A DNA stretch of 64,000 nt from Synechococcus elongatus PCC 11801 (GTDB lineage Bacteria > Cyanobacteriota > Cyanobacteriia > Synechococcales > Synechococcaceae), in contig NZ_CP030139.2 of the NCBI RefSeq assembly GCF_003846445.2, positions 2,273,223-2,337,222 of the forward strand, written 5' to 3'. This document shows positions 36,053 through 49,547 of the stretch, in pieces; positions within the stretch are counted from its first letter, which is position 1, and every line of letters begins with the position of its first letter. The notes under the pieces are model-generated. The model made no database searches and was not told the origin of the DNA. It saw only the letters and a list, made by a program, of their open reading frames with translations. The position numbers and the translations under genes were made by a program.

Positions 36053-37291
36053 GTGACCACCAGCGATCGCATAACGCCGATCACAGTGGCGGGGTTGAGT
36101 GATTACCTCAAAAGCCTGATTGAAGATGAGCGGCAACTGCAGCACCTCTGGATCTGTGGCGAGGTTTCCAGTAGCAAAGCCCACACCTATGGACTCTTCT
36201 TCACCCTGAAGGATTCACAGAGCTCAGAACAGCTGGACTGCGTTGCTTGGTCGAATAGCTTGGCCAAACTGCAACACCGACCCGAAGTGGGGCAACAGGT
36301 TTTGTTGCTGGGATCCGTACGCCTTTATCCCAAGCGCAGCAGCTACCAACTGCAAGTTGTGCAATGTCTGCCCTTTGGCGATGGATTGAAAGCACTGCAA
36401 CGCCAACGGCTGGAACAGCGACTCCTAGCGGAAGGCTTATTTGCTGACGATCGCAAGCGCCCTTTACCGCTCTATCCCCAAACGATCGCGGTCGTCACTT
36501 CCCCTCAGGCCGCTGCTTGGGGTGATATTCAACGCAGTTTGCGACAGCGATCGCCAGGACTTAAGGTCTTACTCTCGCCAACGCTAGTGCAAGGGGAGCA
36601 AGCGCCAGCAGCCATTGCGACAGCGATCGCACGGGTCGTGGCTGATGGTCGCGCTGAGTTGATCATTCTGGCGCGGGGCGGTGGGGCACGCGAAGATTTG
36701 GATTGCTTCGACGATGAGCGGGTGGTGCGGGCGATCGCCACTTGTCCGATGCCCGTGGTCACTGGTTTGGGGCACGAGCAGGATGAAACCTTGGCCGATC
36801 GCGTCGCGGATTGGGCTGCCCATACCCCAACAGCAGCAGCGACGCGAGCCGTCCCAGCTTGGACAGACTTGCGTCAAGGCTGGCAGCAACTGCGCCAACG
36901 CTTGATTCAGGCACAGCGAGAACAGTGGCAGACCTATCACCGCCAACTACAGCACTGTCAAACCCGCTTAGGTTGGCCGCTGCTCCAACGCCGCTTACAG
37001 CAAGCCCAACATCAGCAGCAATCTCTGCGTCAGCGGCTACAACAGGCCAGCCGATCGCAACTCGCTCAGGAACGCCAGCGCCTAGAGCATCTCCAGGAAC
37101 TGTTGGCGATCCTCAATCCAGAATCCGTGTTGCAGCGGGGTTATGCCTTGGTACGCCGCGATCGTGCCCTGATTCGGCAGGCGCAGGATTTAGCGGTGGG
37201 CGATTGCCTCTCCCTTCAGTGGGCCGATGGCACCGCAGAAGTCTGTGTGGAAACCGTTACACCCGCACCTGAGAACCAAAGCGATCGTTAA
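36053..37291 (+). CDS. xseA: exodeoxyribonuclease VII large subunit
   Basis: Catalytic subunit of exonuclease VII. The 412 residues start at a GTG with an OB-fold domain (ITVAGLSDYLKSLIEDERQLQHLWICGEVSS). The core with VTSPQAAAWGDI, ILARGGGAREDLDCFDDERVVRAI and ITGLGHE-like VVTGLGHEQDETLADRVAD follows. Then comes the long Gln/Arg-rich coiled coil (about residues 280-360) that binds XseB and a short C-terminal segment with VLQRGYALV. All hallmarks are present. The small subunit is encoded at 1910-2134, far away. Divergent from the BASS transporter gene. Confidence 0.95.
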   Translation: MTTSDRITPITVAGLSDYLKSLIEDERQLQHLWICGEVSSSKAHTYGLFFTLKDSQSSEQLDCVAWSNSLAKLQHRPEVGQQVLLLGSVRLYPKRSSYQLQVVQCLPFGDGLKALQRQRLEQRLLAEGLFADDRKRPLPLYPQTIAVVTSPQAAAWGDIQRSLRQRSPGLKVLLSPTLVQGEQAPAAIATAIARVVADGRAELIILARGGGAREDLDCFDDERVVRAIATCPMPVVTGLGHEQDETLADRVADWAAHTPTAAATRAVPAWTDLRQGWQQLRQRLIQAQREQWQTYHRQLQHCQTRLGWPLLQRRLQQAQHQQQSLRQRLQQASRSQLAQERQRLEHLQELLAILNPESVLQRGYALVRRDRALIRQAQDLAVGDCLSLQWADGTAEVCVETVTPAPENQSDR

Positions 37292-47341: not shown

Positions 47342-47815
47342 TTAAAGAGGAGCGATCGCCCAAGGTGGTGGCCAACTGCCCGCTTGCCAACTGATCCACA
47401 AGCGAGTGATGTAGTAGATCAGTAGACCCACTAAGAGTGGTAGCCCAATTTTGCGAATAAGCGATCGCCAAGGTAGGAGCGATCGCCCTCGCCACAGTTC
47501 AGCTGCCCAGATTAAACCTGCTGCCAGACTGGCAATCAGTAGAGGCGGCCCAAACGCATGAAATTGAACAGCTGTTGCCCAATCACCACGCCCAGTGGCT
47601 GCGAGCGATCGCGTCATGCCACAGGTAGGACAGGGCAAACCTGTAAGCGCTAAGAGTGGACAGGTCCATTGCAGTGGCAGGCGATCGCGACCGTAGAGTG
47701 CCGTATACAGCGCTCCACCCCCGAGGAGGAGCAAGCCTACCTGCCGTTGCTGTCGAAATTTTCGACTAGAACCAAGGCTTGCGACCCGTGATGTAGATCG
47801 CTTCGAATTGCTCAT
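47342..47815 (-). CDS. DUF2752-type membrane protein
   Basis: A 157-residue protein with a basic N-terminus, about three membrane helices and the DUF2752 signature CPLLALTGLPCPTCGMTRSLAATGRGDWATAVQFHAFGP (residues about 52-90). The CPxCGMTR cysteines and arginine may bind metal or take part in redox chemistry, although the function is unknown. The first 50 bases overlap the end of the TM2 gene in another frame, so the two are translationally linked; a shorter start cannot be excluded. Confidence 0.87.
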   Translation of the reverse strand: MSNSKRSTSRVASLGSSRKFRQQRQVGLLLLGGGALYTALYGRDRLPLQWTCPLLALTGLPCPTCGMTRSLAATGRGDWATAVQFHAFGPPLLIASLAAGLIWAAELWRGRSLLPWRSLIRKIGLPLLVGLLIYYITRLWISWQAGSWPPPWAIAPL

Positions 47816-48035
47816 CAGTCTTGGTCAGGTAGATGATGCCTTCAATGATGCCAATGATGCTCATGACAGGCGCCAGAAAACCACAGCTGAGGATGGAGAC
47901 CAAAAGCATAATGATACCTTCGGTGGTATAGCCCAAGACAAATTTGTGAATGCCCAAGGCACCCAGAATGATGGCTAAAATACCAGCCAAAATTTTCTTG
48001 CTATTGGCTTGATTGTTCGATGGTGATGTCGTCAT
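47766..48035 (-). CDS. TM2 domain protein
   Basis: An 89-residue protein with a polar N-terminus (TTSPSNNQANSKK) and a TM2 domain: ILAGILAIILGALGIHKFVLGYTTEGIIMLLVSILSCGFLAPVMSIIGIIEGIIYL, two helices joined by a short turn. TM2 proteins are widespread small membrane proteins of unknown role. The G-x-H-KF-LG-Y signature is intact. It is the first of three tightly packed genes (TM2, DUF2752-type, 68-aa protein) on the minus strand, after a gap of 39 bases from the frameshifted gene. Confidence 0.9.
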   Translation of the reverse strand: MTTSPSNNQANSKKILAGILAIILGALGIHKFVLGYTTEGIIMLLVSILSCGFLAPVMSIIGIIEGIIYLTKTDEQFEAIYITGRKPWF

Positions 48036-48074: not shown

Positions 48075-48757
48075 TCAAGCATCTTCTGAAAAATTGGCAA
48101 TCCCAATAATGTCTTCATAGGCTGCTGCGATCGCACAAACAGACCAAGGAATTGTGAACAGTAAACCAAGTCCACAGGGAATAATGCCAGCGATATTAAT
48201 TAATGTAAGAACAATCAAAAAGCCGAAAAAGGCAAACCACTGCTGAGTAACCAGCTTGCAGCTAAACTCTAAAGCCTGCCAAGGCTCGAATTGGCGCTCT
48301 GCTACTAAAGGGATCGCAAAAAGATAACCAACGCTTAAATAAATACCAGGAATGACCAACAGGACAAAGCCGATCACTGTTAATGCGCTGATCAGCAAAG
48401 ACGTGAGGAAGAAGGGCAGAAAACAATTAAAGCCGCGAAAGAAATCCCCAAACTCGATACGTTGCTGCTTGATTATTTTGAATGCAACTAAAAAAATCCT
48501 GCTGACAGTGGTCCATTGACGATTAGTTGAATTGCTCCCCCAGGACCCAATCGTGGCACCGTATTGTCATCTCCTGCAAAGGCGCCATCGATGCCAGCTA
48601 AGACTGCGTAAATGATGCCAACGACTAAAAGGTAAGCAATAAAGAGTCCGATATTTGCCTTGAAAATCTCCCAGCCTCGCGAGAGATACGCGCCAAGGCG
48701 AAACTCATAGTGGCGCTCCAGCAGCTCCTCATGACTGGACCCAGAGCCAGAGGTCAT
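48075..48757 (-). pseudogene. frameshifted integral membrane protein (T7 tract)
   Basis: Two consecutive minus-strand frames, 48488-48757 and 48075-48398, together encode one membrane protein of about 227 residues. The first ends ...NGPLSAGFF at a TAG directly after a run of seven T (minus strand, 48491-48497). Adding one T restores an uninterrupted frame, ...GFF-LVAFKIIKQQRIEFGDFFRGFNC..., running into the second. It resembles the neighbouring 236-aa gene at 48837: similar GWEIFKAN/GWQLFQQY start and GYLFAIPLVAERQFEPWQA against GYQFTFLLIADRHLRAWPA. It may be a recent null mutation, a sequencing error, phase variation or programmed slippage. The parts show no other decay. Confidence 0.8.
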
Positions 48758-48836: not shown

Positions 48837-49547
48837 TCAAGCGTGTTGGTCTAGCGCCTGCTCCAGTGTTTGCAAGCGTTGATAGGCGACCGCGAGGCAG
48901 CAATAAAACAGCGGCAGAATCACTACCAAGCCCAGACAACAGGTAACGATCGTGATCGCACTACTCACCCCTGTCCAGACAGTCATCCCAACAACCGCTG
49001 GTAGCCAATGCGATCGCACCATGCGCAGGCTGCGTTGCATGGCTGGCCAAGCCCGTAGATGGCGATCGGCAATCAAAAGGAAGGTGAATTGATAGCCAAT
49101 CATCAGGTAGCAAAAACTGACGAAGCCGATCAGACCCAAAGCACTGCTGCTGATGCCGATCGCGATCGCAATGTTGCGATTGACCTCCCACCAGCTCCAT
49201 AGTCCAACAACCCCAATCAGCCAAGGACTCCAGCAGATTAGGGCGATCGTACTGATCCAAGTCACGGCCCAGAAGGACTGCCAAAACAGGAAGGGGTGCT
49301 GAAAGCCAATCCAGAAGTCACTAAAGGGGCGATCGCGATCGCGGAGCCGCTGCCAAATTCCCCAGTTCAAACCCAAGGTCAGGGGGCCAATAAAGAAGGG
49401 GAGCGCTAACCAGCCAAGGATTGGTAGGCTTTGCAAGCCACTTTGAATCAGTAAGCTGACTGCCGAGAAACCCAGCAATTCAGCCGGATATTGCTGAAAC
49501 AGTTGCCAGCCTTCTTGCCAGAGCGATCGCAGTTTGAGTGGAGTCAT
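48837..49547 (-). CDS. polytopic membrane protein, paralogue of the frameshifted neighbour
   Basis: A 236-residue protein with about five or six hydrophobic segments and a short cytoplasmic start (MTPLKLRSLWQEGWQLFQQYPAELLG). The pattern (W-x-x-F-x-x-x-P start; later GYQFTFLLIADRHLRAWPAMQRSLRMVRSHW) is shared with the adjacent frameshifted gene, so the two are likely tandem paralogues. Function unknown. The longest frame begins at 49616 but would run through the chlP terminator hairpin, so the ATG at 49547 was chosen. Confidence 0.78.
   Translation of the reverse strand: MTPLKLRSLWQEGWQLFQQYPAELLGFSAVSLLIQSGLQSLPILGWLALPFFIGPLTLGLNWGIWQRLRDRDRPFSDFWIGFQHPFLFWQSFWAVTWISTIALICWSPWLIGVVGLWSWWEVNRNIAIAIGISSSALGLIGFVSFCYLMIGYQFTFLLIADRHLRAWPAMQRSLRMVRSHWLPAVVGMTVWTGVSSAITIVTCCLGLVVILPLFYCCLAVAYQRLQTLEQALDQHA

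Follow-up and report, generated by a model that had tools for sequence, protein, structure and literature searches.

A membrane-protein gene in two frames

The window, a stretch of 64,000 nucleotides from Synechococcus elongatus PCC 11801 (contig NZ_CP030139.2), carries on its minus strand, between 48075 and 48757, two frames of one gene that are offset by one base in mid-gene. The break is present in the given sequence: the first frame ends in a TAG stop (48490-48488, minus strand) immediately 3′ of a run of seven T, and the second begins within that run (48494) and reaches its own stop at 48075. The gene and its neighbours are arranged as follows, G001 being the sole other member of the genus that was compared and L073 a locus from a distant cyanobacterium.

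48837-49547, minus strand: tandem paralogue, upstream; intact, 236 residues from an ATG that matches G001 (the open reading frame, of 259 residues, extends to 49616)
48488-48757, minus strand: N-terminal frame, 89 residues, ATG...GGA TTT TTT TAG, with one membrane span predicted by hydropathy
48490-48496, minus strand: seven-T run at the break, its last T being the T of the TAG stop
48075-48494, minus strand: continuation in the other frame, 139 residues (FLVAFKIIK...), with the remaining membrane spans
47766-48035, minus strand: TM2-domain gene, downstream; intact (Pfam TM2, 1.5e-12), order kept in G001 and L073
47342-47815, minus strand: DUF2752 membrane-protein gene, next downstream; intact (Pfam DUF2752, 6.7e-16), order kept in G001 and L073

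The run exists as the initial annotation described it, but its position there (48491-48497) was off by one base, the seven T occupying 48496-48490 of the minus strand. It lies about 40% into the gene and not at the 5′ end. Joining the two frames gives a product of 88 + 139 = 227 residues, the length proposed at the outset. The second piece lacks a plausible start codon: the earliest one, a TTG at 48398, comes 32 residues in.

Both pieces align to a one-to-one orthologue in G001 that is intact and 229 residues long, the N-terminal piece to residues 2-91 with 63% identity and the C-terminal piece to residues 91-229 with 77% identity. Because the two matches are collinear on this one protein and do not overlap, a chance overlap of frames is excluded, and because the orthologue is intact at 229 residues, the two frames represent one gene and not two; the suggestion of a single gene one base short at the T run, and in frame for the rest of its length, is thus borne out. 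The gene order in G001 is also the same (chlP, the paralogue, the gene under study, TM2, DUF2752). The tandem paralogue had been offered as support for the joined reading; it is indeed related, but only its C-terminal ~105 residues match the family by BLAST, at 30% identity, and it is the orthologue that provides the real evidence.

Homologues were found in 98 cyanobacterial genomes (79 of 291 by search and a further 19 by family search, the window's own included), and almost all of them are single open frames. Not all 98 are orthologues, since some of the weaker matches are to longer proteins and are confined to their C-terminal half. A pair of naturally separate genes, the arrangement that the initial annotation held against its own reading, is rejected on the same evidence, since intact homologues form one frame. 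A search of genome contigs, plasmids and phages returned no conspecific or mobile copies.

By hydropathy the product is a multi-pass membrane protein. Its profile matches, to BPSS1780, YciC (UPF0259) and GPDPase_memb, with DUF975 for its relatives, are all sub-threshold and fall mainly over the C-terminal membrane region; the orthologue likewise scores below the curated cut-offs of these families, whose functions are largely unknown. For BPSS1780 (NF041043) the orthologue reaches 46.6 bits against a curated cut-off of 90, which makes it a distant relative only, and a structure search found no solved structure of a relative. The gene probably forms one operon with the TM2 and DUF2752 genes. The distant cyanobacterium G130 (L073, 567-2214) has a homologue of the gene followed by TM2 and DUF2752 in the same order, which suggests that these genes for uncharacterised membrane proteins make up a small, conserved operon.

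Constraint on the gene and the tract at the break

The part of the gene that follows the break is under purifying selection and carries no further damage. Against G001, pN/pS is 0.29 for the part ahead of the break and 0.19 for the part behind it, with 0.22 and 0.30 for the neighbouring paralogue and DUF2752 genes, all rough figures, with synonymous sites near saturation. As the post-break part looks as constrained as the neighbours, the break is either young, relative to the split of the two lineages, or not real.

At the break site the orthologue in G001 reads TTTTTCTTA, that is GGC TTT TTC TTA GTA, five T, a C and two T, whereas the window reads GGA TTT TTT TAG. Loss of the C alone converts a tract like that of the orthologue to the seven T of the window, so the homopolymer may be a product of the deletion and not its cause. 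Among about 50 homologues read at the DNA level, the site has three to five T, or none, in most, and an uninterrupted, in-frame run of eight T in an intact gene is found in G008 only (L070, 1495-2136). With an interrupted tract in the orthologue and a single run of eight among these homologues, the tract is not a conserved device: no conserved hypermutable tract was found in this set, and neither the slip site nor the split-frame layout is conserved, the homologues being single frames mostly lacking a run.

Only one homologue in the set besides that of the window is frame-broken at the site, by a different deletion. The copy in G184 (L083, 900-1100) has lost two bases, CC, at the codon at which the window is broken. 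A relative about 98% identical to it in protein sequence (L106) is intact, as are two further relatives. The shared codon was considered as a sign of a programmed site and rejected, since the CC deletion needs a different shift and the near-identical copy is intact; it is taken as a coincidence.

Origin of the break

An intact orthologue and a frame broken in the window are as expected of a frameshifted pseudogene or null allele, and we think it probable, though well short of certain, that this is an ordinary null allele, recent and specific to the lineage, of an uncharacterised membrane-protein gene. The ancestor would have had a single gene for a multi-pass membrane protein of about 227 residues, similar to BPSS1780 and YciC and with DUF975-like relatives, and the loss of one base in the lineage of the window would have produced a loss-of-function allele. 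The base may have been lost by deletion of the C from an orthologue-like TTTTTCTTA. Alternatively, a silent change of TTC to TTT may have created a run of eight T that then slipped to seven. The second route would be mutationally easier, judging from the rates reported for Listeria inlA, in which the interrupted tract A2GA4 gave no deletions (below ~3e-10), while the change from A6 to A7 came at ~5.5e-7 and the reverse change at about 4e-8, the latter from a single revertant (PMC2831843). Ribosomes would halt at the TAG after 89 residues, and the resulting fragment, with its one predicted span, is most likely non-functional and would probably be degraded. We infer that the living cells do lack the base and that the allele is null and young.

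The likeness to inlA extends to the alleles themselves. There, as here, a pure tract that is one base short breaks the frame (the A6/A7 alleles), and related strains have an interrupted tract at the site, A2GA4 in Listeria and T5CT2 in Synechococcus (PMC2831843). Unlike the tract studied here, which lies in mid-gene and is seen in one genome, that of inlA is at the 5′ end and changes repeatedly in populations (PMC2831843). Since a run of seven T is slippery, the null allele may be revertible; it probably reverts at the ordinary rate for homopolymers, and chance repair would then be possible. If the break is real, it marks one small way in which the physiology of the strain departs from that of S. 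elongatus PCC 6301/7942, and it gives biotechnology, to which the group is of interest, a candidate null allele able to revert.

The main rival explanation, possible but on balance doubtful, is that the assembly dropped one base and that the frame is intact in the living strain. The break sits in a homopolymer, nearly all homologues are intact, and the undamaged, conserved remainder of the gene fits an error equally well, as purifying selection would then have continued to the present. Ion Torrent sequencing is prone to homopolymer errors. The published genomes of PCC 11801 and PCC 11802, apparently of the same species group, were obtained on the Ion Torrent PGM, and the present seven-contig assembly may derive from those data. 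Two verification primers published with work on PCC 11801/11802 (PMC6957532) have exact matches in the genome of the window, the second of them being absent from G001, so that the window probably comes from that group. Against this, when 1.2 Mb of the genome of the window were screened for frame breaks against 1.2 Mb of G001, eleven of the 783 orthologues compared (256,089 residues, ~768 kb of coding sequence) had split matches and, on sorting by eye, the gene studied here was the only clear mid-gene break; the other candidates fell before probable start codons, at the ends of genes or in short open reading frames that are themselves doubtful. The screen does detect frame breaks: run in the other direction, it flagged 17 candidates in G001, of which at least some look real. 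An older sequence of PCC 6301 is reported to contain many errors, frameshifts included (PMC9239245). A generally frameshifted assembly is accordingly rejected by the 783-gene comparison, although a single remaining error would be compatible with such a rate. Moreover, ten other runs of exactly seven bases within intact conserved genes are unbroken (in a 400-kb subset), and if the true tract matches the T5CT2 of G001, the loss of its C would be an atypical homopolymer error. The same comparison revealed a difference in xseA, encoding the large subunit of exonuclease VII (36053-37291, plus strand), the C-terminal frame of which departs from that in G001; since the version in the window looks normal, it is probably the G001 sequence that is in error.

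A fresh null mutation or a sequencing error, which the initial annotation had listed as the simpler alternatives, are thus the likeliest explanations, as the tract is not conserved and shows no sign of programmed frameshifting. The recoding and phase variation that it also proposed are unlikely, and its suggestion of a switch or programmed slippage found no support: most homologues lack the tract, and the orthologue has T5CT2.

Recoding, in which −1 frameshifting by the ribosome or transcriptional slippage on the T7/U7 run would yield some full-length protein, appears improbable. A slip on TTTTTTT just ahead of the stop would bring reading back into frame, and there are precedents for frameshifts rescued at homopolymers, namely chloroplast atpB (PMC8254509) and bacterial genes that carry runs of nine (PMC1088944). 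The run of seven is, however, shorter than the ~9 nucleotides tied to slippage in many bacteria; in a large proportion of bacteria, selection against A/T runs, taken to indicate transcriptional slippage, begins to show at a length of nine nucleotides, and a run of eight A has been termed non-slippery (PMC1088944). Nor is there an unusually stable RNA structure downstream that might stimulate frameshifting, the predicted fold differing little from shuffled sequences (z of +0.75, −0.56 and +0.40, for folds free of pseudoknots), and the site is not conserved in homologues. At most, then, low-level accidental leakiness is possible, given the precedent of accidental homopolymer rescue in chloroplast atpB (PMC8254509).

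Phase variation, with the tract toggling within the population between in-frame and out-of-frame lengths, is about as improbable: seven T are long enough for hypermutability by analogy with inlA (A6 to A7 at ~5.5e-7; PMC2831843), and one homologue, that of G008, has eight T in frame at the site, but the tract is interrupted in the orthologue and lacking in most other homologues, it lies 40% into the gene instead of at the 5′ end, and the protein has no match among the kinds that typically phase-vary, surface and modification proteins. Similarly improbable is a reversible T7/T8 on/off switch peculiar to this Synechococcus group, with cells mixed for the two states. A homopolymer where a frame breaks says little in favour of a switch when the interrupted tract of an intact orthologue differs from it by one deletion.

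Loss of the gene in other cyanobacteria

A frameshift null allele, the reading that we prefer, has a precedent in the same genus, pilN, which is frameshifted in PCC 6301 among S. elongatus laboratory strains; in that case several strains were compared and resequenced (PMC9239245). The gene itself is patchily present across cyanobacteria and is sometimes lost, and the loss recurs. Besides the two-base deletion in G184, the homologue in G120 (L084, 1-600) loses homology after residue ~159, and the frames downstream resemble, by eye, a transposase, which suggests an insertion element. A weak homologue in G095 (L086, 578-1288) has one in-frame TGA and may be another damaged copy.
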